The notes under the pieces: generated by a model
Databases searched by the model: none
Seen by the model: only the letters and a program-made list of their open reading frames with translations
What the model was told of the DNA's origin: nothing
Assembly (NCBI RefSeq): GCF_032854445.1
Contig: NC_088295.1
Location: 33,531,385 to 33,595,384 of the forward strand
Source of the DNA: Liolophura sinensis
Lineage: Eukaryota > Mollusca > Polyplacophora > Chitonida > Chitonidae
Direction of reading: 5' to 3'
Length of the DNA: 64,000 nt
Shown here: positions 5,701 to 60,396 of the stretch, one piece after another
Numbering within the stretch: the first letter of the stretch is position 1
How the letters are laid out: each line of letters begins with the position of its first letter
Translations under genes and position numbers: made by a program

Positions 5701-7528
5701 CAATGAGCGATAGGTAGCCGCCTGCGCAATGTATACATTCTTCCTTGGGAGCGTCTTCTCTATTCATTAATATGGTGAACTAATTTGAACGTTATATGGG
5801 AGAAACTTCGTCAGTAACATGGTCGGAGGTTTACACCGGCAACTCCAGTTTGCTACACTCATAAATGTATGAACTTAAAAACCATGAAATAAAAAAATAT
5901 ATGAAAATGTATCAGCGGAAGGTCTGAGGATCAACATGGCAAATATTTTGTGGTATTGAAGTATTAACGCTGATTGGCTAGAGGTGAAGACAGGGTTTTT
6001 TTGTTTAAATCTTGCCTTGGTTACGTTTGAATAAATGTACAATACCTAAAAGTCAGTTTAAGCAAGGTACACCCTTAACTTACGCATCTCCTACGTTAGG
6101 CATTCAGGATCGATTCTCTATCCTTTAAATAGGTTCTCTTGAATATTCGATAAAAGTATAAAGGAGATATGGAGAGTGTGTCCTAAACATTGAAACTTTG
6201 AAGATTATTCAGTTTGTTACGTGGGGGATCGCCAGGCGCTAAACCTTTATTTTGACATTAATATTCATCAGAAACTTCTAGAAAAATAAATGTGCTAATT
6301 AAGTGCTGGCAATGCATGGGTCAGATCTAGATTTCTACAAAAAAAACCTTGCTCAATCCCTGCAGACGTTATAAATATTTGAAGCGTACATTTTATCGAC
6401 CGACCATTCTGCTTATGGACATGTCTAATTCTGGCTGTATACTGGTGCGCTTGTTTTATTTTTATAGACACCCCAACAAAGCCGGAAGTGACCTTGTCGT
6501 CCCCTGTCCGTGAGAAATATCCGGCTACCGTCACCTGTAATGTGACCCAGATCAATCCCCTGCCAAAAATATACTGGTACCAAGGATCAGATTTGCTCAC
6601 CAACATCAATACAACATCCAATATCACAAGGGATTATACTGGAGGGTTCAATGTGATCGAGAAGTACACATTCACCGCCAAACGATGGCACTCGGGGAAG
6701 CGTATCTCGTGTGTAGTTTACAACCAGAGGGATGGGAAAATCATTCGCAAAGGAGTCGTACCCGATGTTCATTGTATGTTCCGCTTTGTATATACGATAA
6801 TCCAGTTGTAGTTGTGATTCATCTGTGATAAGATTCAAAATGGAATTCTATCGGTACGATATACTTGTCATTTATACATCAATGAACTAATTGGGTACCA
6901 AGCTGAGTGTGATAATCCTTTTACTTACATGTGTATATACCTATTCTCTTGCTAACCTGATCTAAGCAAGTGTTTTTGTAATATTATGTATCGCACTGTC
7001 GTCACTGCTTGTGATCAGCTAACATACGTCCATCATCACTCAATATTATCAGCATATTGTGAATGTTTCCTACTTGATGGAGTGGTATTGTACTATTCCG
7101 TTCTGTGTTGAAAATCTCTACCAGACGAGACTCCGTAGTGAATTGATTGGACCACATTTATAGCTATAAAATAAATGAATATATACTACCCACATCATCA
7201 CGGAACACCCTCCATGTCACCGTTGTGTAAGACTACATGTATATAACCTTTACTCTTATTTTTAACAGTCTCGCCAATCCTAGAAGTGAAGGTACGTCCG
7301 GAAAATGTTACAGTTGGTGGGAAAGTGGAGTTCACCTGTACAGTCCAGGCAAATCCAGGAACTGAAGCGTTTTGGAGAAGAGATACAGGGGATATAGTGT
7401 CCCCGCTTTCAAATTTCACACTAACGGATGTCAGACCCTCAGACTCAGGGACATACGTGTGCATTGCTAATGGGAAGTACTTCGAGACCAGTAAGGCATT
7501 CGCCAAAATTCATGTAACAGATGGGTAG
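2598..7528 (+). CDS. SRCR plus triple-Ig domain protein gene (partial, five exons seen)
   Basis: Exons at 2598-2775, 4770-5025, 5311-5613, 6468-6773 and 7269-7528 (or 7524) encode one SRCR domain followed by three Ig domains. Introns before SRCR, between SRCR and Ig1, Ig1-Ig2 and Ig2-Ig3 are all phase 1, the usual arrangement for shuffled extracellular modules. All have AG acceptors, and every donor before the last exon begins GT. The frame runs to TAG at 7526-7528, but GATGG|gtagaa just before it could instead be a weak donor. No signal peptide or transmembrane exon was found; 5' exons may lie before the satellite or outside the window. SRCR/Ig proteins are typically secreted or surface recognition or adhesion molecules; ligand and function here are unknown. 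The intron inside the SRCR domain does not keep frame as written (exon 1 ends phase 2, exon 2 starts phase 0), so the locus may be a pseudogene or have an unseen micro-exon. Confidence 0.75.
3800..4065 (+). repeat. Copy A of an unclassified dispersed repeat
   Basis: Shares runs such as 'tgtgattgtatgt', 'catattgagtagttctag', 'gttagaataaaac' and 'ggttttactctc' with the stretch at 59860-60090, and partly with 19740-19870, 33335-33475 and 62795-62885. It lies in the intron of the SRCR gene. No terminal structure or coding frame is visible. Confidence 0.6.
4290..4553 (-). mobile_element. Full-length tRNA-derived SINE (family 1)
   Basis: Read on the minus strand it begins with a tRNA-like head (A-box 'TGGCTCAGTCGGTTAGCG', B-box-like 'GAGTTCAAGTCC'), then a conserved core and a 3' tail 'GGCGTAAAACACCAATCAAA' with AAT repeats. 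A 13-bp target-site duplication ACTTTTTATGTTT flanks it at 4277-4289 and 4554-4566, which proves retroposition. The tail resembles SINEs reported across molluscs (V-SINE/RUDI-like), but the family name is an inference. It sits inside the intron that splits the SRCR domain. Confidence 0.93.
4770..5025 (+). CDS. Exon: C-terminal half of SRCR domain
   Basis: Acceptor 'aacgtttag' ends at 4769 and donor 'gtaag' begins at 5026. The open frame reads GECLTLVGCCSS, RNCFRGG, DIDCKGQATRFEDC and RAWVRCL, supplying the later SRCR cysteines including the closing VRC. It ends in phase 1 and joins the next exon in frame. Direct joining to the exon ending at 2775 shifts the frame and meets TAA after seven codons. 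Confidence 0.75.
5311..5613 (+). CDS. Exon: Ig domain 1
   Basis: Bounded by 'gtgacag' and 'gtgagt', phase 1 at both ends. The translation has the Ig B-strand cysteine in ERIELTCASG, the core tryptophan in DLYWRC, and the F-strand cysteine around NGQLCRCSA. It has extra cysteines (WRCKVQSCEQCES) beyond the usual pair, suggesting additional disulfides. Confidence 0.75.
6468..6773 (+). CDS. Exon: Ig domain 2
   Basis: Bounded by 'tttttatag' and 'gtatgt', phase 1 at both ends. The Ig fold is visible as PATVTCNVTQ (B-strand Cys), KIYWYQGSD (core Trp) and RISCVVYNQ (F-strand Cys). N-glycosylation sequons NVT, NTT and NIT are present, consistent with an extracellular protein. Confidence 0.8.
7269..7528 (+). 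CDS. Exon: Ig domain 3, possibly terminal
   Basis: Acceptor 'tttttaacag' precedes 7269. The frame shows KVEFTCTVQANPG, the core Trp in EAFWRRD, and the classic SDSGTYVCIANGK, a clear I-set or V-set Ig domain. It ends KIHVTDG then TAG. If the weak site GATGG|gtagaa at 7524/7525 is used as a donor, the protein would continue further. Confidence 0.85.
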
Positions 7529-11296: not shown

Positions 11297-12304
11297 TTAG
11301 TACCTCGTATGACCACCTCCAACTGCTACCACTACCTGACACCTCCTGGGTACAGATCGAATCAGTCGTTGGATGTTTTGTTGTGGAATCCTTCTCCATT
11401 CCTCCTGCAGCATGTGGAACAACTGTTGAAGATTCTGTGGTGGAATACGACGTCGACGCACCCGTCTATCGATCTGATCCCAAAGGTGTTCGACTGGGTT
11501 TAGATCCAAGGATTTGGAGGGCCAGGGAAGGGTATTGATGTTGTTATTGGCCAGGTAGTCCACGGTGGCACGTGCTGTGTGGGGCCTGGTGTTGTCCTGT
11601 TGGAAGAGCTGCCGTTGAAGGTCAACAAGGCGAAGGACGTGCGGGCGGAGAATCTTGTCAATGTATCGATTGGCCGTCAGATTGCCTTGGACAAGCACAA
11701 GCTCCGATCTGCGGGTGTATGAGATTGCTCCGCACACCATAACACTCCCTCCACCGAATCTGTCCACCTGTCTGATGCAGTGAGGAGCAAAACGTTCATG
11801 ACGTCGTCTGTAGACACGGTCTCTACCATCACGTCGCCTGAGGAGATAACGGGATTCATCGCTAAACCTTATGCGCCTCCAGTTTGCCAGGTTCCATGGC
11901 AGCACCGTGGTACACCATCTCACTCGTCGACGTCGATGTAGTCGTGTCAAGGAGGGGGCAACTTTTGGACGTTTGGCACGTATTCCTACTTCTTGGAGAC
12001 GGTTCCTGATTGTCTGATCGGACACTCTTCGGGCTCCAAACTGTTCTTGTGCTGTGTCCCGGGCGGTACGATGGCGGTCACGTAGGTGGGTTACCCGGAT
12101 GTACCGATCTTGGGCAGGTGTGGTGACTCTAGGTCTTCCTGATCTTGGACGGTCATTTGTCAAATGTGTTTGACGAAATCGATCCCACAACCGAGTTATT
12201 GTGCTGGGATGAACGTTGAAGATCCTTGCCACCTCACTCTTTGATTCGCCAGCTTGCAATCGTCCAATTGCCTGATTTCGGTCGGCAGCGTTGAGACGTC
12301 CCAT
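11297..12304 (-). CDS. Tc1-type transposase, DD34E
   Basis: A 335-residue frame, close to the usual length of Tc1 transposases of about 340. The start is taken at MGRLNAADRN (12304) because an N-terminal helix-turn-helix follows at once (IGRLQAGESKSEVARIFNV, residues about 12-30); the frame is open further upstream without homology. The GRPR motif linking the two DNA-binding helices is present (RSGRPRVTT). Catalytic residues are visible: first Asp in RFSDESRY, second Asp in QQDNTRPHTA, and Glu in NPVEHLWD, with 34 residues between the last two, which defines the Tc1 (DD34E) group. The enzyme would cut and paste the element at TA sites. No stop or frameshift is seen. Confidence 0.95.
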   Translation of the reverse strand: MGRLNAADRNQAIGRLQAGESKSEVARIFNVHPSTITRLWDRFRQTHLTNDRPRSGRPRVTTPAQDRYIRVTHLRDRHRTARDTAQEQFGARRVSDQTIRNRLQEVGIRAKRPKVAPSLTRLHRRRRVRWCTTVLPWNLANWRRIRFSDESRYLLRRRDGRDRVYRRRHERFAPHCIRQVDRFGGGSVMVCGAISYTRRSELVLVQGNLTANRYIDKILRPHVLRLVDLQRQLFQQDNTRPHTARATVDYLANNNINTLPWPSKSLDLNPVEHLWDQIDRRVRRRRIPPQNLQQLFHMLQEEWRRIPQQNIQRLIRSVPRRCQVVVAVGGGHTRY

Positions 12305-12604
12305 TTTCGTGTACAGTACTTGCAAAGATATTGGATAAAATTGTGAGATTCGTTTGGGTCTTTTATAGTCACATGCTGTACTCATGTTTTGCACGTGACA
12401 AACAATCATTGTGCCTGAACTTCGTGCTGCACGACATCAACGCACATCATAACAATCCTAATTGATAAAACCGTTCAAAATCATTTTTGGTTGCGTTTGG
12501 TCAAGGATGATCTTCTGAAACATTCCAGTAACAATGTGCAACCCTACAAAACTGATTGAGTTAACATATGTGTACAAAATTGTAAGTATCATTTTTGAAT
12601 TTCA

Positions 12605-20868: not shown

Positions 20869-23800
20869 GTGGGTTGTTCCCTGGAAATTTATCATTCGTT
20901 ATTTTTTGGCAGAAAAAAATGTAATTGTCTCTGCTGTATAAAAATGCCTCCGTTCTATCTTTAAAACATTTTGAGTCATAACCTGCTTCATTGCATGGAA
21001 ATCGTCGATGTGTTTTGTTTTGTATCGCCACGAAAACTGGAGTCTGAATGACACATTTTATTTGACACTTGACAGGTGAAATACAGCTGGTAGTTTTAAA
21101 CATGTAACTCTAATTCAACGCTCGTCCACGAGAGTTGCAGTGTGAAACGAGGTCATATGTGTCGTAGAATAATTTGCTGGGTCTGTGTGCATAGAGTCGT
21201 AGTTAAGAACCTTCCTCCAAAATCAACTGAAGATTGCGATAGCGGTGCAGATCGAGTCTAGCTGGGATTTTAAAAAAGCTTGTTGGGGAGCTGTTATGTC
21301 AAGGTGTGGCAGTTGTTGCTTGCTGACCCACTTCTCATATGCTTATTGTTATTTCTTTAAAACAGCTACATGGAAAGTTTCTTTAGACGGAGATAACACG
21401 AAGATGCATGTATGTTAATGGAATTTCTCTTAGCAATAAATGTTCAAATACTACATCTACAACTACCAGTAACAGTTCTGAATGCAGAGGTTCATTTTTT
21501 TTTCTTTTTGGTTACAAAATTACACGAAAAACATTTGACATGTTCTTCAGTGATTACCACACATCAAAAATCATTTAACAATGTAACTCTCATGGCTGCT
21601 TAGCTGGAATTAGCGTTACATGTCAGCAAGCCTACTAGTGAAAATGGCATTTCTAGAGGACATTCACCTATTGAGGTAAAAAATTTTATTTGCCCCACCT
21701 CATTCACTTCTAGTGGACAGACCGGCCTGGATAGCACTGTTGGTAGAGCGTCCGCTTCGGGACCGGTAGATCCAGGAGGATTAATCCTTGATCGAGTCAC
21801 ACCTAAGACTTTAAAAGAGGAAGTTGTAACTTCCTTGCTTGGCGTTCAGCATGAAGGGGATAGTGCAACGACTGGTTGACCCGTATCAGTATAATGGCTT
21901 GGGCGGGGCGGCTTACTTGCCTTCGGTAAGTCATCTCAGTGAAGCAGCACTAAATAAAAGAGCGGTGGAAATCCGCCCTGCAACAAGGAGGCACATTACA
22001 CGTACATGCACCCTAATGATTCCTTCGTCGTCATATGACTGAAAAATTGTTGAGTACGACGTTAAACCCCAAGCACTCGCACTCTAGTGGACAGCATTTT
22101 TGTAGATAAAATTCATGCAGTCTATAGATATAGCTGTTGTTTGTTCAAACTGCAGAATAATATTTGTTGACAGGTAATTGTAAAGATTAGAGAGCCATTG
22201 TAAATTTCCACATCAGGTCATTATCCATATAGAGTCACATGAGAAATTGGCTTTCAGCATTAGTATTCATTCAAGTCCAACCTGCTTTTGTCTGACTACA
22301 TTATGCACCATACGATCTATTCTTACATATCATATCATTCAGTACTGTGAAATGTTACTGGCCTGCACAGTAATTAACCCAGCTGAAAGGACTCTCACAT
22401 GTACTAGGTACCACATGCCATCGTAAAAATTCCACAGGCCCGGTAATACTGCTGTGTTTGTTATGTTTACAAAAAGGAAAGGTCAGAAACAAAGTTTTGC
22501 TGATTTTAGAAATAAAGCATTTATCCATTACAGTGATCAATACTCTGTGGTGTCCTGCAAGTTTCATGCCACTAATAGTTTGCTGAAAATATCCACAGAA
22601 TGGACAGGATCCATAAAAATGTCAGCACATACATGTACATGTAGATTAGTCAAAACAAATAACCATAGTTATTTCAGTAGAGGGATGACCGTGGGAACCA
22701 CCTTAAATGGCCACTGCCATTTTGCTCTGATGTTCTTAATATACGTAAGTCTATAAATCAACTTCAGATATGAAATTCTTATGAGAAACAGGGAATCCAA
22801 AAATACACTCTCCGAGTACTCATACCTCATGCTAACATGGCAGAAAGGTAAAACATGATTCCCATGACGTCAGCACAAACGCCTGTAAGTGTATTCTCAA
22901 GCTATAGGAGTAAATCACACCTGATTGGTTAGAATTTATAACATGGCACTTTTGATTTTCTCGGTGTGCACAATTAACTACATGCAGTCAGACTATTGTC
23001 CAATCTAATAGCTGGCGTTTTGATGATTTTTGTCTGGTTGTTGAGATTTTCAGCAAACTGTTGGGAACGGAGACTCATGGGACACCAAGGAGTACATTTC
23101 AGTGTAAAAATAATGAAGAAATTATAATTTCTGAAGGTGAAACTTTGTCTCCAACCTTGTACTACTACATGTACACAGCAGGCCTACACAAAAATTTCCC
23201 TATCTTTTAACTTGAGCCTCTCCTAATGTATGTTGTGCACTATATTCATAAGTTATCACCAATGTAGAAGTACCAAAACCTGTGTCAGTAAACCAGCAAT
23301 TTTCACTATGAGTTTGATCCGTAACTTTAATCAAGCCGGTGCATGCTATATTTGGAATTCAAACTTTGGGTAGGATTTGCTGGCAGTTTGAAAGTTGTTT
23401 CGGGTATGTACATGTGTATACTCTGAATTTTCATAGTTTTTCAGCAAAGTGTTGATTTATTCCCATGGTCCGTTTATTTATATACATTTATATAATTATT
23501 TGATTGGTGATTGAATGCCATACTCATTATGGTAGAAGGAAACCAGGCTGAACCCACAACAATTTGCAGTTTGTTGGCATACCTTCCCGCTTGCAATTAT
23601 TCATGATCTGGTCTTGAAACATTTAGCTTGTAGAATCCCCTATATAATGTGTGATTTAGCTAGAAGATAAACAATATGGCACTTTTATACAGAGAAACCA
23701 AGAAGAAAACACCTTTCTCGATCAGGAAAGTTATCTAGTATTAGGTGACGATCTTTGTACTTGTAATTAAAATTGCTTTTGCATCTTCTTAGGAACTCAA

Positions 23801-26800
23801 GAGGTACCTATACAGTTTGATGAAATTGTAAGTATTGTCTTCTTCAGTCATGTAAATTATGTGAAAATAGCAAAGGTGAAGTTGTGTTTGAAACTGTTAG
23901 TGTGTGAATATTAAAATGTTTTGCATTGTAAGTAATAATTTACCTACCTGTAAAACCTTGCTATACCTACATGTACATGAAGATGTTAATAGTATGGTTG
24001 AAGAGGTCTCTCAGTGTCTGGCAAAGGATGTACATTCCAGTGTGATATACATGTACCTACATATACAGAGACAGTTCAGGTTAGGTGCTGTAAGCTTGAC
24101 TCAGATTGAGAGCTGTATTTTGCTTATGGTGAATGTTTAATTAAATGCTGAATTTCGTCGAAGATCTGTTTTATCATGCACAATGGAAATTGTATCACTG
24201 GTCCAGTAACATTACATGTACATGCATAACAGATGTGTTAATATTGGTATATGACTACTGTTTCTGTAAAATATTTTTCAAAATGTTAAAAAAAAATATA
24301 TAAAAAAATATATATATATAAAATAATGTTATTTTTGATGATGAATAAATACAGGCTTGATTATGTTTTTATCATTATAGAGTAAGAAGGGATGATAAGA
24401 ACTAGAAGTTTTTAAGTGTAAATGTCGGTGTCATTACACAGGGTGGATGGTCTTCATGCTATAGTCATCACTGACAGAGATGGGGTTCCTGTGATTAAAG
24501 GTAAGCTATATAACTGTAGCACAACAGTTTATGCCTTCAGCATGCTATAGTCATCACTGACAGAGATGGGGTTCCTGTGATTAAAGGTGAGCTATATACC
24601 TGTAGCACAACAGTTTATGCCTTCAGCATGCTATAGTCATCACTGACAGAGATGGGGTTCCTGTGATTAAAGGTGAGCTATATACCTGTAGCACAACAGT
24701 TTATGCCTTCAGCATGCTATAATCATCACAGACAGAGATGGGGCTCCTGTGATTAAAGGTAAGCTATATACCTGTAGCACAACAGTTTATGCCTTCAGCA
24801 TGCTATAGTCATCACTGACAGAGATGGGGTTCCTGTGATTAAAGGTGAGCTATATACCTGTAGCACAACAGTTTATGCCTTCAGCATGCTATAGTCATCA
24901 CTGACAGAGATGGGGTTCCTGTGATTAAAGGTGAGCTATATACCTGTAGCACAACAGTTTATGCCTTCAGCATGCTAAAGTCATCACTGACAGAGATGGG
25001 GTTCCTGTGATTAAAGGTGAGCTATATACCTGTAGCACAACAGTTTATGCCTTCAGCATGCTAAAGTCATCACTGACAGAGATGGGGTTCCTGTGATTAA
25101 AGGTAAGCTATATACCTGTAGCACAACAGTTTATGCCTTCAGCATGCTAAAGTCATCACTGACAGAGATAAGGTTCCTGTGATTAAAGGTAAGCTATATA
25201 CCTGTAGCACAACAGTTTATGCCTTCAGCATGCTAAAGTCATCACTGACAGAGATGGGGTTCCTGTTATTAAAGGTGAGCTATATACCTGTAGCACAACA
25301 GTTTATGCCTTCAGCATGCTAAAGTCATCACTGACAGAGATGGGGTTCCTGTGATTAAAGGTGAGTTATATACCTGTAGCACAACAGTTTATGCCTTCAG
25401 CATGCTATAGTCATCACTGACAGAGATGGGGTTCCTGTGATTAAAGGTGAGCTATATACCTGTAGCACAACAGTTTATGCCTTCAGCATGCTATAGTCAT
25501 CACTGACAGAGATGGGGTTCCTGTGATTAAAGGTGAGCTATATACCTGTAGCACAACAGTTTATGCCTTCAGCATGCTATAATCATCACTGACAGAGATG
25601 GGGTTCCTGTAATTAAAGGTGAGCTATATACCTGTAGCACAACAGTTTATGCCTTCAGCATGCTAAAGTCATCACTGACAGAGATGGGGTTCCTGTGATT
25701 AAAGGTGAGCTATATACCTGTAGCACAACAGTTTATGCCATCAGCATGCTAAAGTCATCAAAAACAGAGATGGGGCTCCTGTTATTAAAGGTGAGCTATA
25801 TACCTGTAGCACAACAGTTTATGCCTTCAGCATACTATAGTCATCACTGACAGAGATGGGGTTCCTGTGATTAAAGGTAAGCTATATACCTGTAGCACAA
25901 CAGTTTATGCCTTCAGCATGCTAAAGTCATCACTGACAGAGATGGGGTTCCTGTGATTAAAGGTAAGCTCTATACCTGCACCACAACAGTTTATTAAGCC
26001 TTCAGCATGGTATGTTAAGAATGTGCATATCTGAGTATATCACAGAGTTATTTCCCTTCATTTAGACCAATAAAATCTACATGTAGGCCTCTAGTTTATA
26101 CACACATGAGCATTTGCAGTGGTATGGAAAAATAGATGCCCTCTGTCCTTCTGTGTATAAGTCTAACTTTACCAAACTAAATAGGAAGGCATCTAACACT
26201 TATGGTATTGACACAAACAAAATATCACGTGCATCACTGATTGTGGGGCAGAGGATATGAGTTCATATTAACCCTTTGACAGCTGTCACAGTCAAACTCT
26301 CTACCAAAGCACTCTCGTCTGATGCCTCATATCAGTGGAGAGTGTCCAGCAGCATTGTAAATATTCTACACCTGTCTGTTTTGCGCATCAAATTTGATGT
26401 TCCTGGCAATATTAAGATTTTTTCCCCCCAAATCATGGAAGTTGGGAATAAAAACCTGTGGACACAGCATTATTGTTGTGTTAAAATGATTAAATAGCCA
26501 AAGTTTATTATCTTTATTTTATGCCTACGGAGCACAAGATGCACTTACTTGAAGTTATCCACTCTCTGCATTGTGTGAAAATGTAAAAGCTCTATTGCTT
26601 TAATTTATTGTTGTTTTTTTAGGGGTCCACACAGCTAGACCTGCAGGACACCTTATTGAAATCATTTGGATTACTATTATTTTTCTTTATTGAATTTTGT
26701 GAGCTTGCTACAGCCTAGACTGTTTGACTGATTGACTTGAAACTTTCCACTGAAATTCCCCTACACCTTAAACTGTGCACCTCGAAGTCTGTTTTTTTTT

Positions 26801-29686
26801 CTAGGTCAAGTGGTTTGGCAGCCATATTGTATTTTATATGAAATCGTTTAAAACATCTTCTTCTCAAAATGCACTGAATGGATTTTTCTGAAATTTTATA
26901 TGCATGTAGACCGGTTGCTAGTTCTAATAAGTTTGACATAATCGTTGACTTCCAGTTAAAATTGAGGAAGCTCGCCATTGGTTGAATTTGTGATGTTGCA
27001 ACTAGTTTTGGACATTCAGGGGTTTTTTTTTACCCATTTTTTAGCTGATTCCAAATCTGCTTTGGCTATCTTAGCAACTTTTTGTGATATAGTCACAAAA
27101 CTAAAATTTAGTTACATAATTTCAATGCCGTGTAACACAAGAACTATTGTAGGTAGAAATCTAAAAATCTTGCACCAAATTTTAGCGGAAGACATGCTCT
27201 TTCTACAAGGTGAAGGTGGATTTGAGCTATAATCAATAGTTTTGTCACTAGAATTATTTAAATGACACCACCGTTCTTATTCAGAAGTACATATTTCAGC
27301 CCATTGCTTTAAGGAAAAGACCTCTAAAAATCGGAGTAGGCATCATTAGATAGACCACTTATAACTATGTATAAATATACTTTCATTTATCTTTTTTTGA
27401 TTTGTGTGAAGAGAGTTAAGGGGGTTCAAACTTTTGAATTCTAAGGTTGGCTTTATGGACCATACTATCAGATTTTAGGAACACTCAAGTTTTTCCAATT
27501 TTAATCATGACACTGAATGTTGGAATAACTCTTTTTACCTGTGAGTAAAGGATTACTGAAATAATGTTCCCAAAAATTCCTTCCTTCTGGTGAACATCAG
27601 GAAAAAAGAGTGATGTGATGTCAGAGTTCCTGGATACCATCAGTATAGTAAAGCCCACCATAGTATTCAAACAAATGAAAGTATTTTTACACATAGTATT
27701 CAAACAAATGAAAGTATTTTTACACATAGTTTTCAGTTGTATATATGATGAACCGTACTTCATATTTTAGCTTTCTTTTACTTCAGAATTTATTTAGATG
27801 GTAACTGGACTGACACATTGGTTCTTTTAACTGGCTGGTTTAATTTCTACTGCACTGTCCATGGTTTCCAGAAATGGTTGTTGTCTTAGATATAGTTATG
27901 CTGTCTCCTATTTGACACTGTACAGTGATAATAATTACAAACGACTTGGATCCCGGTCAAAACTGCTGTGCAGTTCAAGTTGTTTTGTTTTCTTTTGTAA
28001 TGTTCCTCTCTGCCTCACCCTGTCGTACTGACCCACCGCTGCTCACATATGTTTCCATTTGCTCTTTGTGTGATAAATGTAGGTTTAAGTTGTTAACTGC
28101 TGTCATACGTCTATTTGATCTGTCTCGTGTGTTGACAGTTGCTGGAGAGAATGCTCCTGAGCTGGCTCTCAGACCAAACTTTCTATCAACCTTTGGGCTA
28201 ACCACTGAACAAGCTGGCAAACTTGGATTGGCAAAAAACAAGAGTGTGGTTTGCATGTACGCTTCATATCAGGTGAGTAAGTTTTATAATAGAAAGCGGT
28301 GTTGACCAAACTGCAGAATTCATTTCAGTAGTGATTATAAGCAGGTATTCATAAGAATTTCCAGCCACATATTAATTCAACAACATTAAATGTATTACCT
28401 GCATATTTCATATTTCTGACATTCATTCGGTTGGCCATGGATCAACAAGGTAATGTCAGAATGTTAAATAAACAGGGAGATCATTCAATAGCTCACTGCA
28501 TTGGTCACATACATGTAAATGATGTATATCTTCCGATAAATTATGCAATTGTGTGAGGTTACCAAGGAACCTACTTAAATGTCTAATACAAAGATACATT
28601 AAAAGTTATAAAGGTAGATGCTAGACTTTCAAATAGTGGAATATAATGCTGCAGGGTTTTTTTTCATGCTATTTTAACCAAATTTTACCTCTATTACTAG
28701 GTAGTACAGATCAATAAATTGCCATTTCTGATAACATTGGTGGCTAAGTCAGATGCTAATACAGGTATGTACATCTGTAGTATATGTTTACATTTTTTTG
28801 CATTAAACATCCTCCAGTATTTATGAAAGTTTTCCGACTGGAAAGATTTAACCCTTGGATTGTAAATGTATTTGCTCAGACAAATATTGCTCAGTATTTG
28901 TAACACGTAGTTGTCTCCCTTTAATAAAGTATTTCACCCTCGTAAAAAAAGTAATGTAGTAAAACTATTTCATTTAGAGTGGAAACTTACCTGTTGATTA
29001 TGGGATTGCAATTGCTCTTTTCACTGCAATGTTTTGGTAAGAAGTTTACGTAAAAGCTAAGTGAAGAATGTAGATGAAGTTTGTTTTTTGGAGAATGTGG
29101 TCCATCAGTTTATGCAAAATAAATTTGGTATTATTTATTTATTGATTTGATTTGCTGTTCTGTGCTCAAGGGCCACCAACCTTTGCATGGTACATGATAA
29201 ACCTGTTGACTAAAGGCCTCTTTCTAAACAGAGGTGGTTTGAACACACAACCTCATTTGTCAAGGGCCTGATAGTTGCAGAGTGTCAGCACTCTTCTTTA
29301 AGTGGTGCGAGTTTAGATTTAGGTATTAAAATAATTTTATTATTAATTTATTATTGATATTTAATTAATTGATCATGATGACAGATTTGTTTTTGAAGGA
29401 CACTAGAACTGCTAGGTTATAAAGTGGTCATTCTCAACACTTTCTTCAGTTCTAAACATTGGAAAGTGTACTACAGCTGTAGTTTACTCTTAGCCAGGCC
29501 ACAAAAAAGACCCCGCAGGTTGAGGAGCATGTTAAGGACATATAGCTGTAGGATTCATGTAGAAGTGGTATTTTGTGATATTGTGTGTTGTTGTTTGCAG
29601 GCATGTTGCTGAGCTTGGAGAAAGAGCTTAAGGAATCATTACAGGACTTGAGAGAGGTACTGACTGTTCCACAAGGACTGTCATAA
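20860..29686 (+). CDS. LAMTOR3: LAMTOR3 (MP1), Ragulator subunit, six coding exons
   Basis: Coding exons at 20860-20868, 23793-23827, 24442-24500, 28139-28272, 28701-28764 and 29601-29686 join in frame to 128 residues (vertebrate LAMTOR3 is about 124). The protein begins MAEELKRYLYSLMKL, continues VDGLHAIVITDRDGVPVIK, NAPELALRPNFLSTFGL, KLGLAKNKSVVCMY, VVQINKLPFLITLVAKSD and MLLSLEKELKESLQDLRE, the roadblock-fold pattern of this family throughout. LAMTOR3 pairs with LAMTOR2 in the Ragulator complex on late endosomes and lysosomes, where it anchors Rag GTPases for mTORC1 activation, and it was first described as a MEK/ERK scaffold. All splice sites are GT-AG and phases match. The first exon gives only nine coding bases and is the least certain. 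Intron 3 holds the 86-bp pseudo-exon array; intron 1 holds a SINE. Confidence 0.93.
21721..22082 (+). mobile_element. Full-length tRNA-derived SINE (family 2)
   Basis: 362 bp, flanked by a 12-bp target duplication TCTAGTGGACAG (21709-21720 and 22083-22094). The head resembles a tRNA gene (GGATAGCACTGTTGGTAGAG, then a B-box-like TTGATCGAGTCACACC). The 3' end is 'TGAGTACGACGTTAAACCCC', a tail type widely seen in mollusc SINEs. It sits in LAMTOR3 intron 1. It differs from family 1 in head and body but has a related tail. Confidence 0.93.
23483..23640 (-). repeat. Degenerate SINE (family 1) copy
   Basis: Matches 'atttgattggtg', a shortened core, 'aggaaaccaggctgaaccc' and 'ggcataccttcccgctt', but with large gaps. 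Old insertion in LAMTOR3 intron 1. Confidence 0.65.
23793..23827 (+). CDS. LAMTOR3: LAMTOR3 exon 2
   Basis: 35 bp between 'tcttcttag' and 'gtaagt', encoding ELKRYLYSLMK plus two bases of the next codon. Confidence 0.88.
24291..24326. repeat. A/T microsatellite
   Basis: Poly-A and (AT)n tract in LAMTOR3 intron 2, a little over 100 bp upstream of exon 3. Confidence 0.8.
24442..24500 (+). CDS. LAMTOR3: LAMTOR3 exon 3, parent of the tandem array
   Basis: 59 bp between 'ttacacag' and 'gtaagc', encoding VDGLHAIVITDRDGVPVIK. Its last 46 bases, from CATGCTATAG, are repeated 17 times in the following intron. Confidence 0.95.
24541..26002 (+). repeat. 86-bp tandem array of LAMTOR3 exon-3 pseudo-exons, 17 units
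   Basis: Units start at 24541 and every 86 bp to 25917 with no length change. Each holds a pyrimidine-rich 'tttatgccttcag', the last 46 bases of exon 3 (CATGCTATAG to GATTAAAG), a donor GTGAGC or GTAAGC, and the first 40 bases of intron 3. The last unit is followed by a disturbed spacer and 'ttcagcatggta' at 26003-26015. Units differ by few substitutions: some read CTATAG, some CTATAA and some CTAAAG. Each unit can be defined as an exon by its own splice sites, but 46 bases do not keep the frame: spliced after exon 3 it meets TGA six codons later, and in place of exon 3 it gives TAG or TGA. Use in mRNA cannot be told from the sequence. Confidence 0.97.
27653..27729. repeat. Short direct duplication
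   Basis: 'tagtattcaaacaaatgaaa' plus 'gtatttttacaca' occurs twice back to back (unit 34 bp) in LAMTOR3 intron 3. Confidence 0.9.
28139..28272 (+). CDS. LAMTOR3: LAMTOR3 exon 4
   Basis: 134 bp between 'gttgacag' and 'gtgagt', encoding VAGENAPELALRPNFLST through KNKSVVCMYASYQ, the most conserved part of the family. Confidence 0.96.
28701..28764 (+). CDS. LAMTOR3: LAMTOR3 exon 5
   Basis: 64 bp between 'attactag' and 'gtatgt', encoding VVQINKLPFLITLVAKSD and ANT. Confidence 0.95.
29130..29320 (-). repeat. Possible highly degraded SINE
   Basis: T-rich tail 'tatttatttattgatttgat' followed by 'gtgctcaag' and, further on, a B-box-like 'ggtttgaacacac' in the SINE order on the minus strand. Core similarity is poor. 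Lies in the last LAMTOR3 intron. Confidence 0.35.
29601..29686 (+). CDS. LAMTOR3: LAMTOR3 exon 6 with stop
   Basis: 86 bp after acceptor 'tgtttgcag', encoding GMLLSLEKELKESLQDLREV and a short tail ending LS then TAA. Candidate polyadenylation signals AATAAA lie at 30267 and 30414. Confidence 0.95.
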
Positions 29687-35234: not shown

Positions 35235-36492
35235 GTATTTTCGGGAATCATGTATGTTTGGTAATGGCAGTACAGCTACCATGTATGTTTGGGAATCACA
35301 GTACAGCTCTCATGTCTGCTTGGGAATCACAGTGCAGCTATCATGTATGTTTGGGAATCACAGTACAGCTATCATGTACGTTTGGGAATCACAGTACGGC
35401 TACCATGTATGTTTGGGAATCACAGTACGGCTACCATGTATGTTTGGGAATCACAGTACGGCTACCATGTATGTTTGGGAGTCACAGTACAGCCATCATG
35501 TATGTTTGGGAATCACAGTGCGGTTAGCATGTATGTTTGGGAATCACAGTACGGCTATCATGTATGTTTGGGAATCACAGTACGGCTATCATGTATGTTT
35601 GGGAATCACAGTACAGCTATCATGTATGTTTGGGAATCACAGTACAGCTATCATATATGTTTGGAAATCACAGTACAGCTCTCATGTATGTTTGGGAATC
35701 ACAGTACGGCCATGATGCATGTTTGGGAATCACAGTACGACTACCGTGTATTTTTGGGAATCACAGTACGGCTACCATGTATGTTTGGGAATCACAGTAC
35801 GGTTATCATGTATGTTTGGGAATCACAGTACGGTTATCATGTATATTTGGAAATCACAGTACGGCCATGATGCATGTTTGGGAATCGCAGTACAACTACC
35901 ATGTATGTTTGGGAATTACAGTACGGCTGCCATGTATGTTTGGGAATCACAGTACAACTACCACGTATGTTTGGAAATCACAGTACGGCCATGATGCATG
36001 TTTGGGAATCACAGTACGGCTACCATGTATATTTGGGAATCACAGTACGGCTACCACGAAGGTTTGGGAGTCACAGTACGACTATCATGTATGTTTGGGA
36101 ATCACAGTACGGCTATCATGTATGTTTGGGAATAGCAGTATGGCTACCGTGTATGATTGGGAATCACAGTACGGCTGTCATGTATGTTTGGGAATCACAG
36201 TACGGCTACCATATATGTTTGGGAATCATAGTACGGCTGTCATGTAAGTTTGGGAATCACAGTAGGGCTACCATGTATGTTTGAGAGTCACAGTGCGGCT
36301 GTCATGTATGTTTGGGAATTACAGTATGGCTGTCATGTATGTTTGGGAGTCACAGTACGGTTATCATGTATGTTTGGGAATCACAGTGCAACTATCATGT
36401 ATGTTTGGGAATCACAGTACAGCTACCATGTATGTTTGGGAATCACAATACAGCTCTCATGTGTGTTTGAGAATCACAATACGGCTGATGCA
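35235..36492 (+). repeat. 31-bp minisatellite, about 40 units
   Basis: Unit 'CATGTATGTTTGGGAATCAC' plus 'AGTACGGCTAC'. Because 31 is not a multiple of 3 and the unit has few stops, all three forward frames stay open over long distances and each translates to the same 31-residue cycle (…VWESQYGYHVCLGITV…). These frames are a by-product of the repeat rather than evidence for a protein. Confidence 0.97.
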
Positions 36493-37115
36493 TGTTAGGG
36501 AGGCCATCATGTTAGGGAATCACGGGGAGGCCACAGTGTTAGGGAATTACAAGGAGGCCACCATGTTAGGGAATCACAGAGAGGCCACACTGTTAGGGAA
36601 TCACAGAGAGGCCACCATGCTAGGGAATCACAGACAGGCCAACATGTTAGGGAATCATGAGGTGGCCACCATGCTAGGGAATCACAGACAGGCCAACATG
36701 TTAAGGTATAACAGGGAGGTAGTGAATCACAGAGAGGCCACAATGTTAGGGAATCACGAGGAGGCCACCATGCTAGGGAATCACAGACAGGCCAACATGT
36801 TAGTGAATAACAGGAAGGCCACCATGTTAGGGAATCACAGAGAGGCCACAATGTTAGGGAATCACGAGGAGGCCACCATGCTAGGGAATCACAGAGAGTC
36901 CACAATGTTAGGGAATCACGAGGAGGCCACCATGCTAAGGAATCACAGACTGGCCAACATGTTAAGGAATAACAGGGAGGCCACCATGCTAGGGAATCAC
37001 AGACAGGCCAACATGTTAGGGAATCACAGACAGGCCACCATGCTAGGGAATCACAGACAGGCCAACATGTTAGGGAATAACAGGAACGCCATGATGCATG
37101 TTGGGGAAGCACAGT
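36493..37115 (+). repeat. 27-bp minisatellite, about 22 units
   Basis: Unit 'CATGTTAGGGAATCACAGAC' plus 'AGGCCAC' or 'AGGCCAA'. Alternating CACCATGCTAGGG and CAACATGTTAGGG units give a 54-bp dimer pattern in the right half. It equals the neighbouring 31-bp unit minus 4 bp. Units at both borders carry GATGCATGTT, as in some 31-bp units. Open frames on both strands (297 residues forward including part of the 31-bp array, 201 reverse) follow from a unit length divisible by 3. Confidence 0.97.
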
Positions 37116-46430: not shown

Positions 46431-49045
46431 AGAATGTGTGGTGCCTTTGTCAGAATTATATATCGAAAGGATATTGGTTGCCTTTCCTAGGATTTCAGAA
46501 ATATCTAGTTTTCTTATTAAGTGGCTGTATTGAAGTTTGATTTCAGTGCATTCCCCAAGAAATGCCCGTTGTCTTACTAGGATGTTTCATTTGAAGAAAC
46601 ATCTGATGTCGTTGTTAAGATGCTTTGTGGAAGATATGTATGTTTTATTATTAGAATTGCACGGATATCTGCTTCTTTTATTGGTAAGCTACATTGAAGT
46701 TTGCCTTTGATGTCTTTGATGCAGTGTTTTTAGAAGAAACGTCTGATATATTTGTTGGAATGCTTGGGTGAAGAAATTCGCGATGTCTTTATAAGAATCA
46801 GAAATGTCTGAACGAAAGTCTGCTGTGGAGAAATGTCTAGGGTCAGTAAAGGAATGTCTGGCGCGTTTGCTAGGATGCTTAATAGGAGGCATGTATCGTG
46901 ATTTTGTTTAGCAGCTTAGCGTGGAATAAGTTCAAATGTCATTATTAAGATTCTCAGGTGCCTTACGGTTAGGATGTTAGGATACTGCACTGAACAAATG
47001 CCTTGTGCTTTAGTTAGGGTACAGCACTAAGCAAATGTCTTGTGTTTTAGTTAGGATACTGCACTTAACAAATGTCTTCTCCTTTAGTTTGGATACTGTC
47101 CTGAACAAATGTCTTGTGCTTTAGTTGGGATACTGCACTGAACAAATGTCTTGTGCCTTTGTCAGGACAGTGCACTGAACAATTGTCTTGTGCTTTAGTT
47201 AGGATACTGCACTGAACAAATGTCTTGTTCTTTAGTTAGGATACTGCACTGAACAAATGTCATGTACGTTAGTTAGGATACTGCACTGGTGCCTTTGCCT
47301 GTACAGTGCACTGAACAAATGTCTTGTGCGTTAGTTAGGATACTGCATTGAACAAATGTCCTGTGCTTTAGTTTGGATACTGCACTTAACAAATGTCTTC
47401 TCCTTTAGTTTGGGTACTGTCCTGAACAAATGTCTTGTTCTTTAGTTAGGATACTGCACTGAATAAATCTCTTGTGCTTTAGCTTCTATATTGCACTGAA
47501 CAAATGTCTTGTGCTTTAGGTAGGATACTACACTGAACAAATCTTTTGTGCTTTAGTTTGGATACTGCTCTAAGAAATGTCTTGTGCTTTAGTTTGGATA
47601 CTGCAATGAACAAACGTCTTTTGCTTTAATTAGGATACTGCACTGAACAAATGCCTGGTGCTTTAGTTAGGATACTGCATTGAAAAAATCTCTTGTGCTT
47701 TGGTTTGGTTACTGCACTGGACAAATGCCTGGTGCTTTAGTTAGGACACTGCACTGAACAAATGTCTTGTACTTTAGTTGGGATACTGCACTGAACAAGA
47801 GATCTCTTGTGTCATTGTAAGGATACTGCACTGAACAAATGTCTTCTGCCTTTGTTAGGATGCTGCACTGAACTTGTTCTTTAGTTAGGATACTGCACTG
47901 AACAAATGACTTCTTCCTTTGTTAGGATACTGCACTGAACAAATGTCTTGCTCTTTAGTTAGGATACTGCATTGAACAAATGTCTTGTGCCTTAGTTAGG
48001 ACACTACACTGAACAAATGTCTTGTTCTTTAGTTAGGATACTGCATTGAACAAAATCTCTTGTGCCTTCGTTAGGATACTGCTCTGAACAAATGTCTAGT
48101 GCCTGTGTTACGATACTGAACTGAACAAATGTGTTATGCTTGTGTTAGGATACTGTATGTAACGAATGTCTCTTGTTTGTGTGAGGATAATGAACTGAAA
48201 AGTGTCTAGTGCCTTGTTAGGATACTGCTCTGAACTAATGCCTAGTGTCTTATTAGGATTCTGAATGAATATCTAGTTCCTATGTTAGGATACTGAACTG
48301 AACGAATTTCTGGTGCCTTTGTTAGGACGCTTTACTGAACAAATATCTGGTGCCTTTGTTAGGGTACTGCACCGAACAATGTCTGATTCCTGTGTTAAGA
48401 TACTGAACTGAACGAATGTGTGGTACCTGTGTTAGAATACGGCACTGAACGTCTGGTGTCCTATCACTATCTGTGATAGGATAGTGATCTGATACGAGTT
48501 TAGTGCCTTTGTTAGGATACTGTTCTGAACCAATGTCTAGTTCCTGAGTTACGATACTGAAATGAACAAATGTCTGGTGCCTTTGTTTGGATACTGCACG
48601 AAATGAATGCCTGGTCTCTATGTTAGGATACTGAACTGTAAAGCGCCTAGTTCTTTTGTTAGGATACAGCTCTGAACGAATGTCCATTGAATTTGTTACA
48701 AAACTGCTCTGAACTAATGTCTAGTGCCTTTGTTAGGATACTGAACTGAAAAATGTCTAGTGTCTGTTTTAGGACACTGAAATGAACAAGTGTCTAATAC
48801 CTGTGTTAGGACACTGCACTGAACAAATGTCTAATGCCTATGTTACTGAACAGAGCAAATGTCTAGTCCTTTAGGAGAGAGCTTTATGGAAGGTTTGTGC
48901 GGGCGTCTTTGTCAGGAAATTGCATCCGGATAGTTTATTAATTTAATTGAAGTAATGTCTTGTGTCTTTATTAAGATCCCCTTTGAAAGGAATTCATTTC
49001 TAGTAATTTTGTCAGAATGCTTAATCGAAAGAATTCTTGGTGTCT
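46431..49045 (+). repeat. 37-bp minisatellite, about 50 clear units with decayed edges
   Basis: Between about 46960 and 48860 the unit is 'GGATACTGCACTGAACAAAT' plus 'GTCTTGTGCTTTAGTTA'. The left flank (46430-46960) and right end (48860-49045) hold diverged units sharing 'gtctttgttaggatgctt' and 'gaagaaatgtctg'. The right half (48060 onward) has its own variants (GTCTAGTGCC, GTTAGGATACTGAACTG). No coding frame. Confidence 0.95.
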
Positions 49046-56363: not shown

Positions 56364-57679
56364 TTAACATTTATCCTTGGTTCGTACCCTAACACTGTCA
56401 TAGGGCATGCTTAATCGTCTCTTACTCACATAAATATCTAAAATATAGTCTGTACCTGGCTTTAAATCAGAGATTTTTTCAGTCTTTACCGATCTTTTTT
56501 TGTTCTTATGACGAAAGTAAGCACACTTGACTTTCTCGCTCTTTTTCCGATACTTCGGTCCTTCACACATTACACTGGTTGACTTTTTGTATGAATCGTT
56601 CACTTCTCGTTTATAAATGCAATACTTTTGTCTTTTTTCTGTCACCATCCATCCGATTGTGACTGAATTGCACTTAATCAGACTTTGATAAACATTAATC
56701 TGTGTGTTTTCCGGCAACTTTGGGTACAGAAACTTGGATGGCCGAGTTGTTGCCAAAATTGAGAATTGGCGAGCCTTTCTGCCTTTCATTGAAACCATTA
56801 TAAAGTACTTACTGGGCTGTGCGTCGTCGATAGTGAAATATTCAAGTGACTTTATTTTGGCTTTCTTAATTAGTGACTTCTCCGAATAAAGCTTCATTCG
56901 TACGGAGCCCCCACAAGGGTTAATAGAAAGCATGAGTTGTTCGGCCGGTGATTTTAGCTCATACATGAATTTCTGCGATCTCAGCCTTCTCTTCAGAGTA
57001 ATAGATTTAGCTTTGCCGTCTGAGAGTTTCACGGTTGTCTTCGCACTGCTTTTTGTCCTGGCTCTGATGCTCGTGCCCAGATGGGAGATCATTCGTTTTG
57101 ACGTTGTATCCATGACGAACACATCGATGTAGTACATTTGTCCCTGGCGAAGGCCCTTGTAGCTGTAAGCCGTTTTATTGCCAATACACTTGTAACTGAA
57201 ATCTCTCGCCGGTGCTGCTCGAACTGGAGACATCGTTCTCCTGGTTGACTTGAAGTTCTTCTTGTAGAAAAAAGACCACCGTTTTAACTTGGGTTTGTCT
57301 CCAAAAGCGTACGATCGGAAGCCGCATTGCGTTTTGTAGTTCTTCTGTCGATTAATGGCCACACAGTACTGGACTGGCACAGCCTGGTCAGGATGTGACG
57401 ACCAAGATATCTTCAGACGTCGTTTCCCTTTCTGTCGAACATTTACCTTACCGAGAGTGGAAGACCCACTGTTCGTTATCGCAGTGTGGTCATGTGATAC
57501 CCGAGCGAATAGTTTCACAAAAGTGTCACTATCCAGTGATTTCACATCAATTTTGTATATGCCAGACTCCGCACTGCCCGTAGAGTAGCTGTTACGTTCA
57601 TCTCCAGAGTAACGGTAAAGACGTAGGCCCAGAGCTTGGCTACTTGTCGAACGGAACTGGTCGTTAAGCTCATCGTAAT
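56364..57679 (-). CDS. NDNF: NDNF last exon
   Basis: 1,316 bp after acceptor 'tatttccag' (minus strand). The frame begins DYDELNDQFRSTSS and is open for 437 residues to the terminal Cys and TAA. Most of the FN3 region sits in this single exon. The sequence is rich in Lys and Arg, as is usual for this family. Confidence 0.95.
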
Positions 57680-60396
57680 CTGGAAATATACATGTAATAT
57701 ACAGTTGAGTATAGTGTCATGATATGTTTTATTTATTTATTTATCTGACTGCGTTTTTATGCCGTACTCATGATTAGTTCACTTATACAACGTTGACAGT
57801 GTCATGGTGTGACTGGGATATCTTTTCCTCCACATCATTTACAAATGCATTACTATTTTAACGTATAACATGCTTACAGCGTGATTCTGTCATTCTGCCT
57901 ACCTTCAAAAGACGCTCACATACAGGTACTTGTACTATTTTGTCTTTGTGTATTTCAAAAATAGCATTTTGTTTGCTGCTGGATGGAATCGATAAGACAA
58001 GTAATAAAGTCACAATGATGATGTCCATTAATACATAAGAACCGTATATAGACGACCAGCTTGCAGTTAGTGTTTCATTTGGGCCAACCATATTCCGCCA
58101 ATTTTTGACAACACGCTGAGACAATGTTTGCTCCTATAACACTGGAATTGAATCGCCTGTTTTTCCTTTGTGATATACGTTAATAATGTAGTGTAATCAT
58201 ATTTTCTACACGCTTTTGTTCCTTTAAGATAGCTGTGTGACGATAAATCTTAATTAAGATCTTATTAAAATATACTATAACGAGTTAGAGTCTTGCAAAA
58301 TTAATTTCATTAACAGCTGTGAGCATTCAGCAAAGTAAAGTAGCGATTGTAAAGGAATATTCTGTACACATGCATCTATTCCTTTCGCGCTTCTCATTTT
58401 TATATAGCTACAAGTAATGAGCCTTTAAATGGCTCTCTGTCTCTGTCATTATCAAGCACATGTAACCAACATCCATGCGGAGTAAGTGAACTAAGTGTAG
58501 CATGTTTCAGAGAATCTATTCAGTTCAGACCAGACAACGGGTGGCTCTGCAAGCTCTGGTCTACAGCGTCGGACTTAAGTGTGGGGCACAGTCGCCATCA
58601 CACTTTGAGCACTTGACAAACAGTCTCACCTACGCTCGTCTCGCTCCCTTCCCAAGGCCATAATCCCACTAAATCTCCACAAATATCACACTAAGAGGTT
58701 CCTCGATATGAACGCAAGCTAGTTCATCAAACAATGCAACGCTGCAACATCTGATCAGTTTGGATATGGAAGGAGTGAAAGCAGTGGAGTAGGCCAGCTC
58801 TTCCATGGTATTGCTGGTAAAGCTGTCCCAAGAAGACCCACCGCTACGTTACGTGTGTGTAACAGCACTACACCATTTAGAATGTGTTACGCACCATCGA
58901 CAATGTGTATTGGAGTATCAAAAAAAAGGTCAATGACAAAAAAACAGGTATGACCAATAATCTCACCAAAAGCACCCCACTAAACCTATGAAAGTAGACT
59001 GGAGGCCAAGGCATCAATTTTGTAGATGTTCAAACATTTTGCTAAAAAATTTGCAAAAAAGTCTCAAAAATAAAGGGAACGTATATATCTGAGTGGATCT
59101 GTTTTACTTGTTGCTTTCTGTCGTTTTAAATGCAGGCTAACCGGCTGTCAAAACAACACGTCATCAGTGCCTGATTTGCATTCCTACCATTATGGTTAGA
59201 AAGGGTATGTATGTCAGAAACTGTTTTGCTGCTACTAAGCTCTTTGGAGATCTGGAGAGTGTGGGACGGAGTTGTGCGTAAATCCAGTATGTCAAAGGCA
59301 GTGCTCGTTAAATAGATTTGTGACGTTAAAATTGCCCAATCTGCACACTGCACCTCCTTGGATCCGCAGGAATACATCTGACGGGTAGGGCGTCGATTGG
59401 ATGAACAGGTTTGGAGACCATCAAAGTTCAGGCATGCACATACATATACACATACACATACAGGCATACTAGTATACAGTTTACCTTTATATTGAGGTTA
59501 TTGGCTTTAAAAATGTAATTTTTATGCCTTGATTGCCTCGGTGTATTTGCCGCTGGTGACAAGAAATGGAATACTAAAAGACGATTTCTTGAGTATGGTG
59601 TAAAACTCCAATCAAATCAAATATATATAAACCAAGTTTGTACCGAGTTTGATAAGACATTACACTGAAAGGTAACATTTTAAATTCCCGTTAGAGAACA
59701 GCTAAAAGTTAGCTTTGGTTAGAATTCCAGAAATGTCACATCGACAGTTACAAATTGGAAGGTGTGGAACAACCCCTACAGACAGGCATCAACTTCCTTG
59801 TTGAGTTCAGTCACGGTTCTTATAGAAATTACCACCACAGACAGATTTGCTCCTTTGCATTGTTTTAATGTGATTGTATGTCAAATGTGATGACACAGCA
59901 TATTGCGTAATTCTAGGCTAGTAAAGTCAAATAAATTGCAGATAACATCACTGCATTATTTTTTACCTACTCCTGCTTAAGCCATGGTGCTAGGGGTCGT
60001 GTAAGTTTATGCATTTACATGAACAGTTAGAATAAAACTTTCGTCGCTCCTCTGGTCTTACTCTCAATGCTGCACGTCTTTAATTATATTCCATAACGTA
60101 AATGTGTGTAAAGGTTGGCTAACCCACAGGAGTGACGTCACATCACAAATGATAAATACGGCTTACCCAAGTTGTTTTGCAAGGAACTGATTACTCATCA
60201 TGTATTTCGGAATTTAATCTCAGCAAAACTCACCAGCAAAAAGAGAAAAAATAAGACAAACTCTTGTTTACCAGTGACAAGTGGTGTTTCTTCAGGCAGT
60301 CTTCTGATGAGGGTAACGTTCCAGTCCAGGCGGGATATACAGGGTGTGACTTCTAGCGATAAAGGTACACGTTCTCGACGCAGAATGTAAAAGTAC
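56364..60396 (-). CDS. NDNF: NDNF (neuron-derived neurotrophic factor), 3' part of gene
   Basis: Two exons on the minus strand join in frame (both splice ends phase 1): 60396-60272 and 57679-56364 (stop TAA), together about 479 residues. The first gives RVPLSLEVTPCISRLDWNV, the family's VTPC...LDW region. The second holds the FN3-type domains: VPVQYCVAINRQKNYKTQC, YKCIGNKTAYSYKGLRQGQ, YYIDVFVMDTTSK, FSILATTRPSKFLYPKLPEN, KYCIYKREVNDSY, KKSEKVKCAYF and PGTDYILDIYVSK. NDNF is a secreted glycoprotein of the extracellular space, known in vertebrates as a neurotrophic and migration factor. The signal peptide and about the first 60 residues (vertebrate comparison) are not found and should lie upstream, above 60396 or outside the window. 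The gene carries SINE fragments in its intron. Confidence 0.93.
57726..57810 (-). repeat. SINE family 1 fragment in NDNF intron
   Basis: 'tttatttatttatttatctg', 'tatgccgtactcatgatta' and 'ttcacttatacaacg' match the SINE 3' end; the rest is lost. It begins about 47 bp from the NDNF acceptor. Confidence 0.75.
57903..58028 (-). CDS. Possible signal-peptide exon of unknown gene
   Basis: ATG at 58028 opens MDIIIVTLLLVLSIPSSSKQ, a textbook-like signal peptide, and 42 codons later reaches AAG|gtaggc. It lies inside the NDNF intron on the same strand but ends in phase 0, so it cannot splice to the NDNF exon at 57679 (phase 1) in frame. It may be a chance frame, an alternative 5' exon that is non-productive, or a nested gene. 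Confidence 0.25.
58029..59584. other. NDNF intron, nothing recognised
   Basis: No exon with NDNF-like translation and no clear repeat. Confidence 0.5.
59585..59632 (+). repeat. SINE tail fragment, plus orientation
   Basis: 'ttgagtatggtgtaaaactc' and 'caatcaaatcaaat' match the 3' end of SINE family 1; the only fragment of that family in plus orientation here. Confidence 0.6.
59860..60090 (+). repeat. Copy D of the dispersed repeat
   Basis: The longest copy of the family: 'tgtgattgtatgtcaaatgt', 'gcgtaattctaggc', 'acatcactgcatta', 'acatgaacagttagaataaa' and 'ctggtcttactctcaatgct'. Lies in the NDNF intron. Confidence 0.65.
60272..60396 (-). CDS. NDNF: NDNF internal exon
   Basis: 125 bp between 'tttttaacag' and 'gtaaac' (minus strand). 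The exon starts in phase 2, so the preceding exon should end with two bases of a codon, consistent with the Lys/Arg-Tyr-Phe seen in relatives. It encodes YFYILRRERVPLSLEVTPC and LDWNVTLIRRLPEE. Confidence 0.9.

Follow-up and report, generated by a model that had tools for sequence, protein, structure and literature searches.

The LAMTOR3 locus and its exon-3 array

We investigated a tandem array within a protein-coding gene of the chiton Liolophura sinensis. The whole stretch of DNA analyzed (hereafter, the window) comprises 64,000 nt, positions 33531385–33595384 of contig NC_088295.1, within a genome of 609,464,459 bases. This ~609-Mb genome first appeared under the name L. japonica (PMC11068029); the species name was later corrected to L. 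sinensis (PMC12441733). Exons 2–6 of the gene join in frame to give the LAMTOR3 reading frame, and the joined product is identical to the annotated L. sinensis LAMTOR3-A-like protein (125/125 aa), in which Pfam domain MAPKK1_Int (PF08923) was found at 7.6e-42. Our model of the gene comprises exons 2–6, and codon numbers start at exon 2. The features of the gene and the array are as follows.

23793..23827, + strand: LAMTOR3 exon 2, coding; preceded by TTCTTAG and followed by GTAAGT; matches the annotated protein
24442..24500, + strand: LAMTOR3 exon 3, 59 nt (gene model)
24455..24540, + strand: copy 0, the genuine end of exon 3 (46 nt) and start of intron 3 (40 nt)
24501..28138, + strand: LAMTOR3 intron 3, containing the 17 extra copies (gene model)
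24541..25916, + strand: 16 regular 86-nt copies, each with a strong donor 46 nt in and the CAG of the previous copy before it
25917..26005, + strand: 17th (end) copy, 89 nt, with a divergent intronic half
26006..26013, + strand: CATGGTAT after the end copy, with 7 of 8 bases shared with CATGCTAT at 24455; probable slippage point of the first duplication
28139..28272, + strand: LAMTOR3 exon 4 (gene model)
28701..28764, + strand: LAMTOR3 exon 5 (gene model)
29601..29686, + strand: LAMTOR3 exon 6, coding part through the stop codon (end counted from the sequence)

The array was recovered by TRF as 18.1 copies of 86 nt (24455–26013; 96% matches, 0% indels, score 2846), each unit consisting of the last 46 nt of LAMTOR3 exon 3 and the first 40 nt of intron 3. 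An earlier note on this DNA had drawn the same 46 + 40 nt boundaries, assigned the exon to LAMTOR3, and counted 17 units; all three points agree with our results, the 17 units being 16 regular copies and one end copy. Its description of the units as exact does not hold, as the consensus is matched in full by only 6 of the 16 regular copies, with 11 sequence types and 27 differing positions among 1,376. Its statement that indels are absent applies to the regular copies and fails for the end copy, whose intronic half has 3 extra bases and 4 substitutions and whose exonic half has 1 substitution. The intronic half of each regular copy has 0–1 substitution, and copy 0 has one private intronic base. 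Such a pattern, with inner copies alike and the end copy diverged, is that of homogenization that leaves out boundary copies. The exon edge AAG/GT is retained in 18/18 copies, followed by GAGC (11/18), AAGC (6/18), or GAGT (1/18). In addition, CAG precedes 17/17 downstream copies, and all 17 extra copies lie in the intron and carry AG/GT signals.

The mean pairwise difference among copies 0–16 was 3.35% per site, and the genome heterozygosity is given as 1.24% in the genome report (PMC11068029). Neither value dates the array, because the copies homogenize one another, but their likeness suggests that it is young. The mean distance between copies was ~2.5–3.1 differences at spacings of 1–12 units and 4–5 at spacings of 13–15; as the far spacings comprise only 2–4 pairs, no clear trend with spacing was found over spacings 1–15. 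Columns that vary among the 16 regular copies number 10 of 46 in the exonic half vs 3 of 40 in the intronic half (Fisher p = 0.078, not significant), and there is therefore no sign of coding constraint. Selection on the splice signals was not found either: the GT/AG core has zero variable columns, an outcome with a probability of 0.51 under random placement.

Such an array cannot have arisen by chance, and several other identities were considered for it. A genome match search that ignored very common words placed all eight matches to the unit in exon 3 and the array and revealed no further copy of the locus in the assembly; a dispersed repeat family was rejected on this ground. A coding repeat was rejected because a period of 86 nt is not divisible by 3 and six consensus units in series stay open for no more than 38 codons on the + strand and 25 on the − strand. 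The window contains 0 Rfam matches at gathering scores and 0 tRNA, and a known RNA gene and a tRNA were rejected accordingly.

Other features of the window were also recorded, with a domain scan that covered 9 of its 105 long open frames. A 379-aa open frame at 11300–12436 (− strand) carries Tc1/mariner-type transposase domains (HTH_Tnp_Tc3_2 and DDE_3), and a 450-aa open frame at 56367–57716 (− strand) matches neuron-derived neurotrophic factor, NDNF (NDNF_C, 1.8e-50). Upstream of LAMTOR3, two open frames at 6383–7525 (+ strand) have immunoglobulin domains (C2-set_2 and Ig_3) and are perhaps exons of a cell-surface receptor gene.

Splice signals and predicted transcripts

Splice signals were scored with approximate human-type matrices. 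On this scale, the 18 donors of the array score 6.84 (11 donors), 7.02 (six, including that of exon 3 itself), or 8.31 (one), and the donors of LAMTOR3 exons 2, 4, and 5 score 3.07, 8.43, and 5.64, respectively. None of the 530 GTs in 8,390 nt of the neighboring + strand reaches 6.84. The array holds so strong a donor because it was copied from a true exon edge. With the same human-type scoring, 16 of the 17 unit acceptors score −1.99 each and that of unit 15 scores −4.11, all below the five real LAMTOR3 acceptors (0.46–7.29), and 110 of 467 neighboring AGs score −1.99 or more. This weakness is a matter of degree, because the acceptor of exon 3 itself, the weakest real one at 0.46, is only ~2.5 bits better. 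Each unit is a strong decoy donor with an ordinary upstream AG, i.e., half an exon. Some mis-splicing is plausible, given that the extra donors roughly equal that of exon 3 in strength and exceed all 530 nearby GTs.

For comparison, we sampled twenty 10-kb stretches of the same scaffold between 0.5 and 30.9 Mb (200 kb). Across 20 other large arrays (16 in this sample and 4 in the window), a donor of at least 6.84 was found on 1 of 40 array-strands, and a comparable donor–acceptor pair at least 20 nt apart on none of the 40, which makes the LAMTOR3 array unusual in exposing splice signals. Over the 400,000 strand-bases of the sample, a score of 6.84 or more is reached by 86 donors, of which 84 follow an acceptor of at least −1.99 by 30–250 nt; the strong donor is therefore the rare part, whereas the acceptor is common.

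We modeled 51 transcripts that use a unit, 17 of each of three kinds: the unit included after exon 3, the unit in place of exon 3, or exon 3 extended to the donor of the unit. A premature stop occurs in 51/51, at codon 33, 37, or 45 for inclusions, 14, 24, or 47 for replacements, and 47 for extensions, counted from exon 2. By arithmetic, 138 nt or more separate the stop from the last junction in all 51 cases, and in 17/17 inclusions and 17/17 replacements this distance exceeds the ~50 nt that a poison exon requires. In at least one replacement, that by unit 15, the stop falls within exon 4, outside the unit. The usual minimum intron length of animals exceeds 40 nt, and two adjacent units would thus be hard to include together, because the spacer between them is only 40 nt.

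The annotated L. sinensis LAMTOR3 protein is the normal form, without an extra exon: it matches at 100% over 125 aa, belongs to a cluster with a single member, and is the only match above 67% identity among the best 120 of 207. A search of ~5.8 billion proteins for the 40-aa poison product returned no candidate sharing three 5-residue words; this search needed a similar length, and decay targets are seldom annotated.

Origin, repeat background, and parallels

The ends of the array carry an imperfect 8-bp direct repeat, CATGCTAT in exon 3 and CATGGTAT in intron 3, alike in 7 of 8 bases. We infer from this that slippage or unequal exchange between the two would have made the first 86-nt duplication; further unequal exchange or conversion may then have produced the 17 extra copies, keeping the inner ones alike while the end copy diverged. 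The 17th copy is perhaps the closest to the ancestral intron sequence. The earlier note held that the repeat junction creates a new 3' splice site in front of every copy. This needs revision, because CCTTCAG also stands before the single-copy intron DNA that follows the end copy; the acceptor-like AG is probably older than the array, and the junction only put exon sequence after a pre-existing AG.

The surroundings are rich in tandem repeats, which make up 13.1% of the window and 17.8% of the 200-kb sample (~13.5% if L010, a 10-kb stretch wholly occupied by one 56-nt array, is set aside). Arrays with a period of at least 30 and at least 5 copies number 5 in the window and 16 in the sample. Extrapolating from this small, one-scaffold sample, tens of thousands of arrays would be expected genome-wide, and with such density a few would be expected to lie across exon edges. 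At least four further regions of the window are minisatellites: 171–2287 (67 nt × 31.5), 35247–37083 (31 nt × 40, then 54 nt × 11), 46976–48845 (37 nt × 51), and 62011–62275 (53 nt × 4.7). The repeat table of the genome report gives only 0.08% as "other (simple repeat, microsatellite, RNA)" and 14% as unclassified (PMC11068029), and minisatellites may be hidden in the latter.

Other exon-edge repeats were also looked for. In a weak survey of kinase-family exons (at least 138 matches, from 131 of 836 candidates scored, judged by eye), no second match to the same profile stretch was found within 2 kb, small overlaps of neighboring exons aside. In the sample, a 49-nt × 91 array (L009:5603–9995) has a unit with donor-like CAG/GTAAGC (7.15 on the human-type scale) and acceptor-like CACAG 12 nt upstream, and is possibly another exon-edge repeat.

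The nearest known parallels are the amphioxus "mirages", described for Adh3, the globins BflGb6 and BflGb9, TnC, and PGBD5, with retinol dehydrogenase and presenilin loci cited as mirage-like (PMC3087553, PMC3902484). These share with the LAMTOR3 array a tandem repeat of an exon–intron boundary in the intron adjoining the real exon, in many copies with extra AG/GT signals. Amphioxus haplotypes are unequal in length and their end copies are not homogenized, and in BflGb6, as in LAMTOR3, the end copies are less homogenized than the inner ones (PMC3087553). The hosts differ, being cephalochordates on the one hand and a mollusc on the other, and so does the size: LAMTOR3 has 17 extra copies of 86 nt, whereas the BflGb6 haplotypes have 6 and 3 units of 150–160 bp. 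Regular splicing appears undisturbed according to Adh3 data and globin RT-PCR (PMC3087553), no aberrant mRNAs are reported for the Adh and TnC mirages, and the same is inferred there for PGBD5 (PMC3902484). The globin and Adh3 cases thus come with RT-PCR or other transcript data, whereas the LAMTOR3 array is known from DNA. A mollusc or LAMTOR3 mirage was not found among the matches listed in the openly licensed literature.

More distant parallels bear on whether such repeats affect splicing. Human segmentally duplicated genes have variable internal tandem repeats at exon–intron boundaries, which, like the LAMTOR3 array, are minisatellite expansions across an exon boundary and can yield alternative splicing or new introns (PMC2812944); on this account, an effect of the LAMTOR3 array on splicing is possible. 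The human repeats are shorter (on average, 30-bp units × 4) and lie in recent paralogues, whereas the LAMTOR3 unit matched one genomic place. Intron gain by tandem duplication, as in potato RdRp and ATP2A1, also copies a segment with splice signals, but there the new intron is spliced (PMC4974935), whereas the annotated LAMTOR3 protein shows no new exon. The VNTRs of TERT intron 6 and ABCA7 are, like the LAMTOR3 array, multi-copy intronic minisatellites in coding genes, and they alter splicing (PMC3948165, PMC5954066, PMC11830802). The TERT repeats, however, are over 1 kb away from exon junctions (PMC3948165), whereas the LAMTOR3 unit includes exon sequence and a true donor.

Interpretation and its alternatives

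Taken together, the array is very probably a mirage, that is, a young, effectively neutral minisatellite whose unit straddles the 3' end of a coding exon. Most likely, it is spliced out with intron 3: the spliceosome would join exon 2 to exon 3 and take the first donor of exon 3, and the whole array would then leave with the intron, giving normal LAMTOR3. The 17 look-alike donors are probably ignored and harmless. A neutral young minisatellite was the alternative offered in the earlier note, and it is well supported by the repeat-rich genome sample, the lack of constraint on the splice signals, and the amphioxus parallels. The first reading in that note was a set of poison exons tuning Ragulator level, in which the 46-nt units are spliced after or instead of exon 3, early stops follow, and copy number sets the leak. 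The reading-frame step of this idea stands, since every inclusion and replacement stops early, as was claimed, and 138 nt or more upstream of the last junction; every unit is also flanked by AG and GT, with an acceptor just ~2.5 bits under that of exon 3. The exon-recognition step is weak: the unit acceptor scores below every real one, 110 of the 467 AGs nearby do as well, an exon of 46 nt would be short, and neighboring units are 40 nt apart. The splice signals show no sign of constraint, and the protein search gave no truncated-product candidate, a weak point given how seldom decay targets are annotated. The poison-exon idea is not supported, and we regard it as very unlikely.

If the array has any effect, a leak among its donors is more plausible than pseudo-exons, because only the strong half of the unit is needed. 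A unit donor would then replace that of exon 3, giving an exon 3 of 145, 231, 317 ... nt, and the resulting decay targets would cost or tune LAMTOR3. Such splicing needs just the acceptor of exon 3 and not the weaker one of the unit; all 18 donors score 6.84–8.31 against none of the 530 nearby GTs (human-type matrix), and in 17/17 extensions the stop, at codon 47, precedes the last junction by 237 nt or more. A single step would give an exon of 145 nt, close to the usual size of animal exons. Nevertheless, the annotated protein is the normal form, the donors lack extra conservation, and exon 3's own donor is the nearest to the acceptor; where similar donors compete in a short exon, the closest to the acceptor usually wins. 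Amphioxus mirages with duplicated splice sites are likewise reported to make normal mRNA (PMC3087553, PMC3902484). We therefore consider this leak unlikely. Two further explanations are more improbable still. RNA structure of the array might draw distant splice sites together, as the 38-bp repeats of TERT intron 6 do in shifting exon skipping through RNA:RNA pairing (PMC3948165), but the four segments folded (86–130 nt) are each predicted to fold less stably than the shuffle mean (z = +1.04, +0.90, +1.23, and +0.61), and such a role is barely credible. The copy number might also be inflated or collapsed in the assembly, as HiFi coverage was only 14× (PMC11068029) and tandem arrays are error-prone. 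However, the array of ~1.55 kb is far below the mean HiFi read of ~8.3 kb (8.77 Gb / 1.05 M reads; PMC11068029), the copies differ from each other, and all eight genome matches lie in one place, so that an artefact is just as improbable.

A neutral mirage in LAMTOR3 would extend the amphioxus type to a mollusc. The array also provides a ready-made test of how splice sites are chosen: in a conserved gene, one acceptor faces 18 nearly identical donors spaced at 86 nt, and per-donor usage in the RNA-seq already published for digestive gland, foot, gill, gonad, and heart (PMC11068029) would gauge first-donor preference directly. It is quite unlikely that the array works as a functional dial, with 18 near-identical donors competing for the acceptor of exon 3 and LAMTOR3 output falling as copy number rises. 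If it did, the dial would act via exon-3 extensions (perhaps also single 46-nt inclusions), all of them decay targets, and the dose of an mTORC1 scaffold subunit would depend on a fast-mutating minisatellite and differ among individuals. Should even a few per cent of transcripts leak, array copy number would be a cheap, fast-changing control of gene dose, and such arrays would mark a step on the way to new exons or introns.
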